This document shows positions 5,901 to 40,865 of a stretch of DNA of 52,744 bases, piece after piece; position 1 is the stretch's first letter, and the number at the start of each line of letters is the position of its first letter. The stretch spans positions 1,475 to 54,218 of the forward strand of contig NZ_LN651371.1 in the NCBI RefSeq assembly GCF_000826125.2, in the 5' to 3' direction. The DNA is from Bhargavaea cecembensis (GTDB lineage Bacteria > Bacillota > Bacilli > Bacillales_A > Planococcaceae). Position numbers and translations under genes: made by a program. The notes under the pieces were generated by a model. It saw nothing but the letters and a program-made list of their open reading frames with translations. It had not been told where the DNA came from and made no database searches.

Positions 5901-7094
5901 TTAAGCCGAGAAGACTTCACGGATTTTGCCGAGCGCCCAGTCGAGATCCTCTTTCGTGATGACGAGCGGAGGGGCAAAGCGGATGACCGTGTCATGCGTT
6001 TCCTTGCAGAGCAGGCCGAGTTCTTTCAGCTTTTCGCAATAAGGACGGGCCTCGCCGTGCAGTTCCACGCCGATGAACAATCCGCGGCCGCGGACTTCTT
6101 TGATCTCTTTGTTGTCGATTTTCTTCAGTTCGCCTTTGAAGTATTCGCCGAGTTCCTGCGCCCTGTCTGCAAGGTGCTCATCCTCGAGAACTTCGAGCGC
6201 TGCGATGGAGACTGCGCATGCCATCGGGTTGCCCCCGAACGTCGAACCGTGGGATCCGGGATTGAATACGCCGAGGATGTCTTCGTCCGCAGCCACGCAG
6301 GAGATCGGCAGGACGCCGCCGCCGAGCGCTTTCCCCATAATGTACATATCAGGCTTTACGCCTTCCCAGTCGCACGCGAACATTTTGCCGGTCCGGCCGA
6401 GGCCCGCCTGGATTTCATCGGCGATGAAGAGGACGTTTTTCTCGCTGCATACTTCGCGCACCCCTTTGAGGAAGCCCTCAGGAGGAATGATGATGCCGGC
6501 TTCGCCTTGGATCGGTTCCAGGATGATGGCCGCTGTGTTTTCATTGATGGCCGCCTTGAGGGCATCGATATCCCCGTAAGGAATGTGGACGATCCCCGGA
6601 AGCAGCGGACCGAAGCCGCGCTTGTATTCAGGGTCGGATGTCATGGAGACAGCCGTCATCGTGCGGCCGTGGAAGTTGCCGTTGCAGACGATGACTTCAG
6701 CTTTTCCTTCTTCAACGCCTTTGACGTCGTAAGCCCAGCGGCGTGCTGCCTTGAATGCTGTTTCTACGGCTTCTGCGCCTGTATTCATCGGCAGGACCAT
6801 GTTCTTGCCCGTGAGCTTGCTTACTTTTTCATACCATGGGCCGAGCTGGTCGTTATGGAAAGCACGGCTCGTGAGCGTGGCTCTGTCAGCCTGGTCTTTG
6901 AGCGCTTTGATGATATGCGGATGGCGGTGTCCCTGGTTGACTGCCGAGTAAGCCGACAGCATGTCCATGTACTTGTTGCCTTCCGGGTCTTGCACCCATA
7001 CGCCTTCCGCTTCGGAAATGACGATCGGCAGCGGAACGTAGTTCTTCGCACCGTATTTCTCTGTTTGCTCAATGATCTGTTGTGTGACTGTCAT
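5901..7094 (-). CDS. rocD: ornithine aminotransferase RocD
   Basis: A 398-aa class III PLP-dependent aminotransferase that converts ornithine plus 2-oxoglutarate to glutamate semialdehyde plus glutamate. It shows [13 protein letters not shown] (residues 225-237) and the PLP lysine in MGKALGGG (K255), with the GNFHGRT motif near 140. AAAGGAGG precedes the ATG at 7094, so the eleven extra in-frame codons upstream are not part of the protein. It lies directly downstream of rocA, and a strong hairpin occupies the gap. Its product feeds RocA, and gudB follows. Confidence 0.95.
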
Positions 7095-7111
7095 CGTGTT
7101 ATCCTCCTTTG

Positions 7112-7149
7112 AAAAAGACGGGCACAATCAGGTGCGCCCGTCTTCTTTT
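7112..7149 (-). terminator. hairpin with T-run between rocA and rocD
   Basis: AGACGGGC pairs with GCCCGTCT across a loop of about 14 nt, with A/T runs on both sides, so it can act in either direction. On the minus strand it sits after rocA and ends about 18 nt before the rocD start. I see no promoter between it and rocD. It may be a partial terminator, or a processing site that sets the rocA:rocD ratio. Confidence 0.65.
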
Positions 7150-7179
7150 GTGTGTTGCGGCTTTTCGGTTGATCCGGGA

Positions 7180-16944: not shown

Positions 16945-18180
16945 ATGACCCTTCAAAAGCGGAACTTCATCATCATCCTTGTTTCGAACTTCCTCGTTTC
17001 CGGCACGATTACGATGATCATGCCTTTCCTGTCGCTCTACATCGAGACATTCGGGGACTTTTCGGATGCCTATGTCCAGCGGTGGGCCGGCCTCATTTTC
17101 GGGGCCACCTTCGTGAGCGCGTTCATCATGTCGCCGATTTGGGGACGGATCGCGGACAAGTACGGATTCAAGCCGATCCTTCTCATTAACGCACTCGGCA
17201 TCTCCACGTTCATTTTTCTGATGGGATTTGTGGATAACGTCGTCTCGTTCTTCTTTCTCCGGCTGGCGATGGGCGTAGTGACGGGCTTCATCCCGACTTC
17301 GCTTGCCTTCATCAGTTCCCAGACAGCGAAGCATGAAGCCGGCAAGACGCTCGGCACGCTCCAGATGGGCAGCGTGTCCGGCACGCTGTTCGGTCCGGTG
17401 TTCGGCGGACTCCTCGCCGATTCATTCGGCTTTTCGTACGCGTTCATCATCTCATCGGTCGCGATTTTCATCGCCGCGTTCATCGTGCTGTTCGGCATCA
17501 AAGAGAAAAAACGGGAAAAGAAAGACCTCGATCACGTGTACACCCGGTCGACGATCATCCGGTCCATCCTCAGCCACCGTCTGATGCTCAATGTCATGAT
17601 CATCACGGCGCTGATCCAGATCGGAAACTTCAGCATCCAGCCGCTGCTGTCCTTGTATGTGGCGGAACTCACCGGCGCAAAAGAAGTCGCTTTCCTGGCC
17701 GGCCTGACATTCAGCGCCGCCGGAGTCGGCAACCTCCTGTTCGCCCGGAAGTGGGGCCAGCTCGGAGATGATCTGGGCTACGAAAAAGTGCTCACCGCCC
17801 TTCTCATCATGACGTTCATCTTCATCATCCCCCAGGCGCTCGTCACTTCCCTCTGGCAACTCGTCATCCTCCGGCTCCTGTTCGGGATTGCCGTCGGCGG
17901 ACTGATTCCGATCACCACCGCTATTATCCGGCGGGAAGCCCCTGTCGATATCCAGGGAGAAGTGCTCGGCTACAACACGAGCTTCCGGTTCTTCGGCAAT
18001 ATTCTCGGACCGACATTCGGAGGCATCGTCAGCGGGTTCATCGGCATCTCGTCCGTGTTTTACGTGACCGCCTTCCTGTTCCTGGTCGCCGTCGTGTCGC
18101 TTTACTTCACGAGAAAAAAGCCGGTGCAGGACTTCGAGGATGTGCTGCAGGAAGAGGAACTGCTCCACCCGCATAGCTAA
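16945..18180 (+). CDS. yuxJ: MFS drug-type exporter (YuxJ-like)
   Basis: A 411-aa, 12-segment major facilitator protein. The loop 2-3 motif is present as IWGRIADKYGFKP (about residues 70-82). Motif C-like GSVSGTLFGPVFGGLLAD in segment 5 marks proton antiporters of the drug-efflux (DHA1) branch. The substrate is unknown. Its position near patB and the mrp operon fits B. subtilis yuxJ (from memory), hence the tentative symbol. AAAGGACG lies upstream of the ATG, with a clear promoter 33 bp away and a terminator right after the stop. Confidence 0.85.
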   Translation: MTLQKRNFIIILVSNFLVSGTITMIMPFLSLYIETFGDFSDAYVQRWAGLIFGATFVSAFIMSPIWGRIADKYGFKPILLINALGISTFIFLMGFVDNVVSFFFLRLAMGVVTGFIPTSLAFISSQTAKHEAGKTLGTLQMGSVSGTLFGPVFGGLLADSFGFSYAFIISSVAIFIAAFIVLFGIKEKKREKKDLDHVYTRSTIIRSILSHRLMLNVMIITALIQIGNFSIQPLLSLYVAELTGAKEVAFLAGLTFSAAGVGNLLFARKWGQLGDDLGYEKVLTALLIMTFIFIIPQALVTSLWQLVILRLLFGIAVGGLIPITTAIIRREAPVDIQGEVLGYNTSFRFFGNILGPTFGGIVSGFIGISSVFYVTAFLFLVAVVSLYFTRKKPVQDFEDVLQEEELLHPHS

Positions 18181-18198
18181 CAATATCCAGCTAGACAG

Positions 18199-18241
18199 GC
18201 TGCTGACAAAGGGAGGTCCTCCCCGATCAGCAGCTTTTTTT
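18199..18241 (+). terminator. terminator after the MFS gene
   Basis: GCTGCTGA (18199-18206) pairs with TCAGCAGC (18227-18234). GGGAGG/CCTCCCC pairing sits inside the loop, and seven T follow. Confidence 0.85.
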
Positions 18242-18258
18242 CATTTTAGGGTTGATGC

Positions 18259-18478
18259 GTATACTCCGATTTCTCACCCCATACTCCGATTTTCCTCGCC
18301 ATACTCCAAATTTCATGCACATACTCCGATTTCCCCCGCCATGCTCCGAATTTAATGCCCATACTCCGATTTTTCCCGCCATACTCCGATTTTCGTATCC
18401 ATACTCCGATTTTCCACGCCATGCTCCGAATTTGGTGTCCATACTCCGATTTTCCTCGCCATGCTTCGAATCTCTTCT
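18259..18478 (+). repeat. 20-bp-period tandem array 1 (11 cores)
   Basis: Eleven copies of a 10-bp core, consensus CCATACTCCG, begin every 20 bp exactly, from 18259 to 18459. The 10-bp linkers fall into two recurrent types: ATTTTCCTCG-like and AATTTnATGC-like. Several cores carry one substitution (CCATGCTCCG). The array lies between the MFS terminator and the mrp promoter region. All frames across it are nearly free of stops, but the resulting peptides are repeat artefacts. The same repeat, reading CCATACTCCG in the direction of the flanking genes, occurs at 33878-34167. Function unknown. Confidence 0.92.
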
Positions 18479-32956: not shown

Positions 32957-33721
32957 TCAATATCCTCCTATCAGCATCTGTTCATAAGCGTGTTCATGGG
33001 GCTGCGGCCGGCGCTCCGCCAGAAGTTCATGAGCCGTGCAGAATTTCGATTCGCTCTTCTGCAGGCATCCGGTCTCCTGCAGGACGCGCGCAAGCCAGAG
33101 CGGCACGCTGTTGTCCACTTTCACTTCCAGGATGACGAGGCCCGGATCGACGAAGTGGTGCCCGTACGGCCCCTTTTCGACGCCAAGATCTTCTTCTCTG
33201 CACCTCAGATTAAAGTCGAATGTCACCCGGACCGACGGATCATCCGTCTGGTGAAGCGCATGCCGGTCATAGCTTACGACCATTTCGGGGTGCAGGCGAT
33301 AATGACGCCGGAACCGGTCGATCTCTTTCAGGACCTGGACATTTGTCGTGTCGAAATCTTCCAGCGGGACCGCTCCGCCTTCTCTGAGGTACCGGTAGGC
33401 TTCCTTCAGCGGGAGCACCGTCCGTCTCTTATGGGTGATTTTCCGGTTTTTCTGTTTTGTCTCGAAGAAGGCTTTCCCGTCCGGTCCCGGCGTGTCGTAC
33501 ACCCGCAGACGCAGTTTCTGCCGGAACTTGAGCCGGTTCTTCACTTCAAAATAGATGGTGCTCTCGTCGTTGTCGAAGTAAAGCGTCGTGACGGTATAGC
33601 GCCCGTCCTTCCCGTTTTTGTCCGGCCTCAGCCTTGATCCCGCCCGGAGGAGCAGCTGACGGTACTGATCCACGGTGATCAGGTACTTCTGCTCCCGCCT
33701 TGTGAATATTTCAATGGCCAT
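32957..33721 (-). CDS. VTC-domain polyphosphate polymerase
   Basis: A 254-aa protein with the CYTH-like tunnel fold of yeast Vtc4. Conserved basic and acidic residues are visible: RREQKYLI (8-15), LYFDNDES (47-54), FRQKLRLRVY (67-76), FETKQKNRK (86-94), KRR (98-100), VSYDR and ILEVKVD. It should polymerise phosphate from ATP into polyphosphate at the cytosolic membrane face. ATG 33721 follows GAGGAGG. A longer in-frame extension is open only because it reads into the tandem array and is rejected. It is translationally linked to the DUF4956 gene. Confidence 0.85.
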   Translation of the reverse strand: MAIEIFTRREQKYLITVDQYRQLLLRAGSRLRPDKNGKDGRYTVTTLYFDNDESTIYFEVKNRLKFRQKLRLRVYDTPGPDGKAFFETKQKNRKITHKRRTVLPLKEAYRYLREGGAVPLEDFDTTNVQVLKEIDRFRRHYRLHPEMVVSYDRHALHQTDDPSVRVTFDFNLRCREEDLGVEKGPYGHHFVDPGLVILEVKVDNSVPLWLARVLQETGCLQKSESKFCTAHELLAERRPQPHEHAYEQMLIGGY

Positions 33722-33877
33722 GCTCCCGTCCTCCTCATCAATCTTTGTAAATACAGCATACCGGGCCCCCATGAGGAACCGGTGAGAGCCAGATGAGAAG
33801 TTGATGAGTAAATTATGGTAAGTAAGCCGGGGTGCAGGGAGCGGGTGATGGCGGAGGATGTCCGGGCGGAGTGGAAT
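33722..33877. other. leader region of the polyphosphate polymerase gene
   Basis: This stretch contains the GAGGAGG ribosome binding site and the presumed promoter of the VTC/DUF4956 pair. Candidate -10 elements on the minus strand (CATAAT, TATGCT) lack convincing -35 partners. No gene is evident. Confidence 0.4.
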
Positions 33878-34167
33878 CGGAGTATGGGCTGATAAATCGG
33901 AGTATGGATGCCATTTTCGGAGTATGGACAGGAAAATCGGAGTATGGATGCCAATTTCGGAGTATGGACAGGAAAATCGGAGTATGGGTCCCATTTTCGG
34001 AGTATGGACAGGAAAATCAGAGTATGGATGCTAATTTCGGAGTATGGACAGGAAAATCGGAGTATGGACGTCATTTTCGGAGTATGGGCGGGAAGATCGG
34101 AGTATGGACGTCATTTTCGGAGTATGGGCGGGAAAATCGGAGTATGGGTGCCATTTTCGGGATGGTG
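33878..34167 (-). repeat. 20-bp-period tandem array 2 (14 cores plus one decayed)
   Basis: The plus strand reads CGGAGTATGG every 20 bp from 33878 to 34138, with a decayed copy at 34158. On the minus strand, the direction of both flanking genes, this is CCATACTCCG, identical to array 1. The linkers mostly alternate strictly: ACAGGAAAAT (or GCGGGAAAAT) and ATGCCATTTT (or ACGTCATTTT), giving a 40-bp higher-order unit. ATTTTC and GAAAAT flank every second core and could pair. The array lies between the yutF terminator and the VTC gene. Confidence 0.93.
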
Positions 34168-34251
34168 TCCCGTTCTCTGTGTAATTTCATTTCAGAAGAG
34201 AAACTCCTGAGACACCTGCGGAAAATACTAATGAGCTTGCTCCCGGGCTCG

Positions 34252-34337
34252 CTCCGATTGCACTCAGCCCCGTTCCGATTGCACTCGGCGATCCTCCGAT
34301 TGCACTCGGCGGTCCTCCGATGACACTCGCCTCATTC
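34252..34337 (+). repeat. 21-bp-period repeat, four copies
   Basis: CTCCGATTGCACTCGGC-type units begin every 21 bp (CCGAT at 34254, 34275, 34296 and 34317). They share CTCCGATT with the 20-bp arrays but have a different remainder and point the opposite way to array 2. AATCGGAG in array 2 is therefore complementary to CTCCGATT here. Non-coding; function unknown. Confidence 0.85.
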
Positions 34338-34368
34338 CGCGCCTGATTATCACCTTCCCGAGCATGAC

Positions 34369-34397
34369 AAAAGCCGCCCCGAAACGGGCGGCTTTCC
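34369..34397 (-). terminator. terminator after yutF
   Basis: AAAGCCGCCC pairs with GGGCGGCTTT across about six nucleotides. On the minus strand the stem is followed by TTTTGTC. Confidence 0.8.
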
Positions 34398-34412
34398 TTG
34401 TCCAAAAAAGTA

Positions 34413-35177
34413 TTACTCATATAATTCCCCGAGCGTCCGAACGCTGACGGTGGGCTGCTCGGGATAACGGACGAGGTCTTCGGTCCGCGTCACGCCGGTG
34501 TCCACGTGGATTGTATCAATGCCGAAGCGGAGGCCGGCAGCGATGTCGGTTTCATAATTGTCCCCGACCAGGACCATCTCTTTCTTCTTGACGCCATGGA
34601 TCTTCGCAATCTCGGACAGCATATGGCCGGCCGGTTTTCCGATGATGGTCGGCTTCACGCCTGTCGTCAGCTCGATGAGCCCGGCGAAAGCTCCGTTCCC
34701 GGGTACGAGTCCCCGCTCATTCGGGAACGCCCGGTCTCCGTTCGTCGCAATGAACCGGGCCCCTCCAGAAACGGCCAGGCAGGCGGAGGCAAGCTTGGCG
34801 TAGCTGATGTCCCGGTCGATTCCGATTACAACCGTTTCACCGCCTGCCGTTACAATCCGGTGGCCCGCCAGCTCCAATGCCTGACGCAGGCCGTCTTCGC
34901 CGATCATGAACACGTCCTGTTTTCCGAATTCGTTCAAGAGATAGCCGGCAGTGGTGATCGAAGAGGTCATGATCTCTTCCGGCCCGGCGGCGATCCCCAT
35001 CCGGCCGAGCTTTTCCGCCTGCTGGTCCGGAGTCAGGGCGGAGTTGTTCGTCATGTAGAAAACCTGCCGTCCCTCTTTCCGGAGAAGCTCGATCAGACCG
35101 ACCGCCTCGGGGATCGCCGACTCACCCCGGTAGACTGTCCCATCCAGGTCAAAGCACCAAGCCCTGTAATCTCTCAT
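34413..35177 (-). CDS. yutF: HAD-IIA sugar-phosphate-type phosphatase YutF (NagD family)
   Basis: A 254-aa cytosolic phosphatase. HAD motif I is CFDLDGTVYRG (nucleophile D10, D12). MTNNSALTPDQQAEKLGRMG near residue 41 is motif II with the NagD-type cap start. KPAGHM gives the conserved lysine, and VGDNYETDIAAG near 209 is motif IV. The substrate is probably a sugar phosphate or nucleotide. Its start overlaps the yutE stop (4 bp), so the two are coupled. Confidence 0.9.
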   Translation of the reverse strand: MRDYRAWCFDLDGTVYRGESAIPEAVGLIELLRKEGRQVFYMTNNSALTPDQQAEKLGRMGIAAGPEEIMTSSITTAGYLLNEFGKQDVFMIGEDGLRQALELAGHRIVTAGGETVVIGIDRDISYAKLASACLAVSGGARFIATNGDRAFPNERGLVPGNGAFAGLIELTTGVKPTIIGKPAGHMLSEIAKIHGVKKKEMVLVGDNYETDIAAGLRFGIDTIHVDTGVTRTEDLVRYPEQPTVSVRTLGELYE

Positions 35178-40582: not shown

Positions 40583-40865
40583 AAAAAACGGCCGGCATCC
40601 TGCGCGTGTGCGCAAAAGGAAACCGGCCGCCTACTGTTCGTCAGTTGAAATAGATATCATAACAACGTACGATCTGTAGCTCTCCATACGGACATTAGTT
40701 CCGTATGACAGTGCCATCCCTGTTCGGAATGGCCCCAGCAGACCTTCATTGACAATCCGGTCCACTTCGGCAATGCTTCCTTTTACGCACGGTCATAGCT
40801 GTCAAACTCGCGTGTGTGACTCATAAGCAATTGCGGCCTCTACCCAATCGATATTCTGATTAATT
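40583..40865 (-). promoter_or_regulatory. lysine riboswitch (L box) with transcription terminator
   Basis: The minus-strand leader carries the conserved lysine aptamer strings in order: GTAGAGG, CGCAA, GGAAGC, GCCGAAG, CTGGG, GGCACTGTCA and GGAGAGCTAC. P1 pairs around 40840-40850 with 40670-40679 (CGAT..GTAG with CTAC..ATCG). The helix CATACGG/CCGTATG closes P5. About 40 nt downstream is a strong terminator: GGCCGG (to 40628) pairs with CCGGCC (from 40590), with TTTTTT at 40583-40588. Lysine binding should favour termination and switch the transporter off. Confidence 0.9.

Follow-up and report, generated by a model that had tools for sequence, protein, structure and literature searches.

The row of 20-bp direct repeats that separates a VTC-domain gene from an HAD-hydrolase gene in the window (the whole 52,744-nucleotide stretch of DNA analysed here) would belong, as one lattice, to a class of intergenic elements found throughout the genus, and we interpret the arrays of this class, with a probability of roughly 45%, as lattices of candidate sites, two helical turns apart, for sequence-specific DNA-binding proteins that are probably architectural. 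A lattice in this sense would be a short row of identical sites set at intervals of 20 or 21 bp, the core of each site measuring 10-15 bp. The interpretation is drawn from comparison of sequences within and between genomes. Cores that are conserved in place argue for function, and a pitch fixed at two helix turns, which places all the sites on one DNA face, would together with free spacers suit a row of proteins along one face of the duplex.

Repeat arrays in the window

The features of the window that concern us are collected in Table 1. A preliminary description, made from the letters alone, had recorded array 2 as 14 cores plus a decayed one, and this is confirmed: read on the minus strand, the array holds 13 exact copies of CCATACTCCG and one core with a single mismatch at 34018, all in 20-bp steps. 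On the plus strand the unit reads CGGAGTATGG-N5-AAAWT. The window contains 18 copies of the exact 10-mer, 13 from array 2 and five from array 1, vs 0.08 expected. TRF reports array 2 with a period of 40, 7.1 copies and an 89% match, the doubled period arising because two unit types alternate. Between array 2 and the HAD terminator sits a second array, of the B family and opposite to array 2 in orientation, which is absent from the preliminary description. Parts of the stretch separating the two resemble, at about 71-90% over 31-89 bp, the sequence that flanks A or B arrays at several further loci. Elsewhere in the window a lysine riboswitch (Rfam RF00168) was recognized on the minus strand.

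Table 1. Coordinates of arrays and neighbouring features in the window.
Feature	Position	Strand	Remarks
Terminator-like hairpin preceding array 1	18186..18245	+	fold z -3.1
A-family array 1	18261..18471	+	11 units of 20 bp; core exact in 5
VTC-domain gene	32957..33721	-	PF09359; downstream of array 2
A-family array 2	33878..34147	-	14 units of 20 bp, two unit types alternating
Decayed 15th core of array 2	34158..34167	-	
Stretch separating arrays A and B	34168..34252	.	similarity to other loci
B-family array	34253..34328	+	4 units of 21 bp, core CTCCGATTGCACTC
Terminator-like hairpin, HAD-hydrolase gene	34360..34412	-	fold z -4.5; upstream of array 2 by transcription
HAD-hydrolase gene	34413..35177	-	upstream of array 2
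Lysine riboswitch	40669..40850	-	Rfam RF00168

The A family and other core patterns in the genome

The genome comprises 3.16 Mb in 4 contigs and is given as 98.9% complete with 6.7% contamination. Exact A cores number 140 across it (60 on the plus and 80 on the minus strand, assembly duplicates retained), vs only 5 occurrences of the reversed pattern. A BLAST search with array 2 returned 19 A arrays and a two-core remnant, the figure of 19 being our own grouping of 29 BLAST rows, and this bears out the earlier suggestion of a dispersed element. Successive spacings in the 19 arrays are exactly 20 bp in 203 of 207 cases, and arrays contain 4-17 units when the core is allowed at most one mismatch; adjacent units are copies of one another, so that spacings and counts are not independent. 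The core columns carry 1.4-1.96 bits and columns 11-15 just 0.04-0.53 bits, which is near random, with the proviso that units in all families were detected via the core and conserved cores are therefore favoured. The spacers comprise 104 distinct 5-mers in 203 units, 88 of them confined to one locus.

About 15 core patterns, A among them, build 20- or 21-bp arrays in this genome. A motif-free periodicity scan of 554 kb gave 107 hits, 73 of them at 20, 21, 40 or 42 bp, and the same scan gave no hit on block-shuffled DNA; 31 of the remaining 34 had periods divisible by three, which coding repeats may give. A further 400 kb yielded 59 periodic hits, assembly duplicates included, with 55 at 20, 21, 40 or 42 bp. 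In 989 kb of sequence, selected in a way that over-represents A and G, the 15 core patterns identified 134 distinct arrays. The patterns are not all independent, since A, C and O (20 bp) can be aligned by eye and the 21-bp cores intergrade. The pitch is 20 bp for A and 21 bp for G, B, K and P. Unit number ranges from 4 to 13 in C and reaches 17 in K at one site (L075:3848-4212), where the array has a higher-order repeat of about 124 bp and the corresponding site of the congener G006 has 4 units. Duplicated stretches at single-N joins were removed from the array counts where their sequences were identical. Exact repeats of ~1-2 kb, found at L023/L024, L157, L159, L160, L166, L169 and L174, one of them flanking a single N, are probably unmerged contig ends, which may partly explain the 6.7% contamination.

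Constraint on core and geometry between species

The clearest separation of core from spacer comes from the G family, of which this genome has 17 arrays (nine with 4 units and eight with 5), with all 59 spacings at 21 bp, and G006 has 15, of which 13 have 4 or 5 units and 53 of 54 spacings are 21 bp. Tandem pairs of G units number 32 here, 34 in G006 and one each in four further congeners, and none was found in the other 255 genomes searched (assembly duplicates being retained in the G tandem-pair counts, as in those for K and P). Of the 76 units here, 74 have A at base 3 of the core; in G006, 49 of 69 have G. Across three orthologous pairs of arrays, 9 of 169 core positions differ, base 3 accounting for 6 of them; with base 3 set aside, 3 of 156 core positions differ vs 50 of 104 in the spacers, and all compared units stand at 21-bp spacing. 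Three other pairs (L243a/L236, L159/L238 and L160/L124) were left out of this comparison for unclear unit numbers or alignment. In the pair L240/L227 the spacers are still recognizable while base 3 is altered in two units. Core and geometry thus appear to be under constraint and spacer sequence free, which points to selection on both core and geometry. A single core base that has shifted at numerous loci within one species suggests that the cores and a reader have evolved together.

The G arrays have polarity, because AGAAA in place of AGCAA favours the last unit (10 of 17 arrays, compared with 9 of 59 inner units). Five 8-mer spacers are common to different G loci vs 1.3 expected, the maximum in 500 shuffles being 4. 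At the reductase site L067:9496, G-like units number 1 to 5 across congeners, as judged by eye.

The inverted design of the P family

The P family occurs in the other six congeners and is absent from this genome and from G006. Among 20 P loci fetched, 17 are inverted pairs with their GAATG ends facing the centre and three are one-sided, 14 of the 20 having been chosen for opposed matches in the search listing; three of the other six are also inverted. The centre measures 17 bp in 16 of the 17 inverted pairs and 18 bp in one. The arms have 4+4 units in 10 pairs, 4+3 or 3+4 in five, 3+3 in one and 4+2 in one. The centre is little conserved except for its end bases (G in 12/16, C in 12/16). No same-family inverted pair was found in 989 kb of the window's genome, and the dyad design is documented for P alone, opposed arrays having also been seen once, by eye, in G007.

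We tentatively suggest, from these patterns in the sequence, that the genus may run some 15 parallel site systems, each having a pitch and often a unit number of its own, and probably its own fast-evolving reader, and that P may be the footprint of a dyad complex, in which 4 units, a 17-bp centre and 4 units would correspond to about four protomers per side. In such a scheme, once the specificity of a reader had changed, the core would change in turn at many loci, the spacers staying as they were. No description of a bacterial architectural element of the P type was found in the literature searched.

Turnover across species and comparison with known repeats

The strict A tandem core occurs in one of 261 genomes of the family. 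Beyond the family, a scan of one genome per species, which may omit the window's own genome, gave one match, in an unrelated deltaproteobacterial MAG. With a relaxed pattern, diverged A-like arrays appear in six of seven congeners and not in G006, and relaxed A tandem pairs number 90 here and 0 to 10 in each congener. At the orthologous site L100, inspection by eye of four congeners showed a degenerate A-like array in G002 and none in G001, G005 and G006. A family search found K confined to this genome and G006. Outside the genus, similar 21-bp arrays with different cores were present in one genus (G069, 120 kb sampled); samples of G078, G016, G059 and five more genomes contained no such arrays, while a single 22-bp hit came from G017 and a single 21-bp hit, coding in appearance, from G010. 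Two G069 loci lying 17 kb apart (L210:343-493 and 17779-17897) carry five TTACAACGT units with spacers similar in order by eye, so that whole elements have seemingly been copied. G006 has about 870 bp of GAGTTTTCC/GAGTTTTACC-type units with higher-order repeats (L124:11419-12295) at the position that a short array (L160:6544) occupies here.

A cobalamin riboswitch lies ahead of a ribonucleotide reductase gene (L067:6670-6850 and 7024-7164), and the leader arrays vary in core and unit number among congeners. An early guess that this RNA was a tmRNA was abandoned when ARAGORN found nothing and Rfam identified the cobalamin riboswitch. By eye, the gap between riboswitch and reductase gene contains I units here, ~14 Q units in G003, ~6 in G004, 3 units in G002, 2 in G005, about four in G001, none in G006, and in G007 two opposed arrays of yet another core. 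Many array sites are vacant in one relative or another: the sites of the window's two arrays are empty in G006, and two other array sites are empty in G002 and G004. Arrays come and go, though some sites are reused or old.

Such turnover would fit functionless satellites of the STAR kind, selfish or neutral, that expand by slippage and recombination and are copied between loci, the core being recognized in copying. In the published account, STAR elements are short conserved direct repeats, intergenic, with locus-specific spacers and species-variable loci, whose function and mode of spread are unknown; the core consensus is a GC-rich 14-mer, T(G/A/T)TGTTG(G/T)GGCCC(C/A), and copies are separated by at least 40 bp (PMC3532100). 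The A arrays share with that portrayal of STAR their intergenic position (0/19 inside genes), variable unit number and locus-specific spacers (88/104 5-mers at a single locus), and the alternating dimers that TRF detects in array 2, the 8-mer spacers common to G loci and the empty orthologous sites speak for the same origin. They differ in that CCATACTCCG does not fit the STAR consensus and the A pitch is 20 bp (203/207), compared with at least 40 bp between STAR cores. The genome studied here further has ~15 cores, unit number is near constant in some families, and the P family of other congeners is built as a dyad around a centre of 17 bp. We consider a satellite origin somewhat unlikely, because orthologous cores are conserved in place while their spacers diverge, pitch remains constant despite drifting spacers, G arrays keep a constant unit number, the P centre is exactly 17 bp, and gene conversion over tracts of sufficient length to homogenize cores should homogenize spacers too.

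The other close parallel is with plasmids. Their iterons are direct repeats at about 19-22 bp pitch, few per array, and form part of replication origins that come with their own initiator gene. The present arrays share the pitch of ~19-22 bp but differ in that the 19 A loci are dispersed over the chromosome and have free spacers. No initiator gene was found near the window arrays in 8 reading frames scanned with Pfam, and A+B and G arrays had no match in the plasmid collection searched. It is hardly credible that the arrays titrate foreign replication initiators, whether as decoys of the iteron type or as what is left of plasmid or phage origins. Their pitch and unit number are like those of iterons, yet the two arrays had no similar DNA in 72,556 plasmid records, in viral contigs neither A nor K was matched, E was matched once and G had 29 single matches and none multiple, and the positions are orthologous and near gene ends. 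The arrays fit neither the STAR nor the iteron definition, these two being the closest known systems. CRISPR loci also alternate a constant repeat with a variable spacer, of about 20-70 bp each, whereas the core (10-15 bp) and spacer (5-10 bp) found here are far too short, spacers recur in alternation and the loci are many and dispersed.

Neisseria and Haemophilus have uptake sequences, and marks of that kind, spread by biased DNA uptake or recombination, would account for the many intergenic copies and for a one-base dialect between species. We regard this origin as very improbable here, given about 15 different cores per genome in tandem phased arrays; uptake specificity is not known from this bacterial group.

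Orientation and placement relative to genes

Genes were called with a simple model made for this analysis, and none of the 19 A arrays falls inside one of these, although a single array shares 8 bp with the start of a gene. This upholds the preliminary view that the arrays sit between genes. The accompanying view that they are oriented fails for the A family: among 13 A arrays in co-directional gaps, the purine strand CGGAGTATGG runs along the gene direction in 6 and against it in 7, and relative to the local majority gene strand the split is 9 and 8. Random orientation together with copies inside genes had been named as what would tell against a dispersed, oriented element, and of the two the first is seen in the A arrays and the second in 0/19. 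Both window arrays come after a terminator (Table 1). This does not apply to a G-family array that separates a ribonucleotide reductase gene from a closely following flavodoxin-like gene, no terminator having been called there. Placement before a promoter region was not borne out, as a simple scan of the interval from array 2 to the VTC gene revealed no promoter of the sigma-70 type.

Over all families, the purine strand is the sense strand of the nearest gene ending at the array in 39 of 48 cases (23/27 in a first sample and 16/21 in an independent one, by an objective purine rule), vs 157 of 248 for purine-rich sense strands in array-free DNA after stops (Fisher p 0.019). This excess is modest to moderate and partly background, and it runs opposite to the sense seen in the window by the preliminary description. 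Orientation was dropped as a signal, given the random A arrays and the background share of the bias, and the idea that the arrays are Rho sites, based on a C-rich, G-poor strand downstream of genes, was dropped on orientation grounds.

The purine excess would fit an element acting in RNA, whereby transcribed arrays are bound by an RNA-binding protein or processed and the purine strand is favoured in transcripts, and some arrays must indeed be transcribed, namely those in the riboswitch-reductase gap and between the reductase and the next gene. We nevertheless hold an RNA role to be unlikely. A arrays are randomly oriented, and RNA folding of array 2, the one array that was folded, was no better than that of shuffles on either strand (z +0.99 and +0.75), which gives no support to the RNA-level insulator proposed earlier. 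Rfam covariance models gave no match up to E 1 in positions 33600-34500. A pitch of 20 or 21 bp with free spacers indicates duplex geometry, and the reading of single-stranded RNA has no obvious need for a two-turn pitch.

Arrays lie in 22 convergent, 49 co-directional and 4 divergent gaps, vs 59, 309 and 106 such gene pairs, so that convergent gaps are enriched and divergent ones depleted (p 0.0004 and 0.0003), a bias due in part to the 20 regions picked around A arrays, the loci surrounding A and G arrays having been selected for those arrays. Median distances are 99 bp to stops and 264.5 bp to starts. Proteins bound to the lattice might on this basis be a roadblock or insulator that halts read-through past weak terminators and between convergent genes, and the position of both window arrays after terminators agrees with such a role. 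So do neighbouring arrays of different families in one gap, whose purine strands face each other (+- 9, ++ 4, -- 4, -+ 0), though an objective recount gave a much smaller figure, 2/7. We judge a roadblock quite unlikely, because the I-family array lies between the cobalamin riboswitch, with its terminator-like hairpin, and the ribonucleotide reductase gene that it controls, where a block would silence the gene and where congeners have up to about 14 units; A orientation is moreover random, and avoidance of promoters alone gives the same placement.

Proposed mechanism and significance

On the protein-lattice interpretation that we prefer, each family would be read by its own putative sequence-specific protein, molecules of which would bind side by side and possibly cooperatively. 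Protein and target would drift together, with the core shifting at many loci and the spacers staying in place. The resulting complexes may serve as chromosomal architecture or as anchoring sites, which is the weakest step of the proposal; we favour this role, with moderate confidence, because a strict roadblock clashes with the arrays in the reductase leader and between the reductase and its neighbour. Complexes would be kept where neither promoter nor coding sequence is disturbed, that is, near the 3' ends of genes and often in convergent gaps. Arrays gain or lose whole units or pairs of units, with some being copied from locus to locus.

No function has been known for STAR and other repeats interspersed between genes, and the comparison of orthologous arrays, by splitting core from spacer, makes the functional question testable. 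If the interpretation is true, these genomes would carry protein-binding lattices along the chromosome, a large class in which specificity changes from one related species to the next, and they would offer a natural system in which to study the joint evolution of a DNA-binding protein and its many sites.
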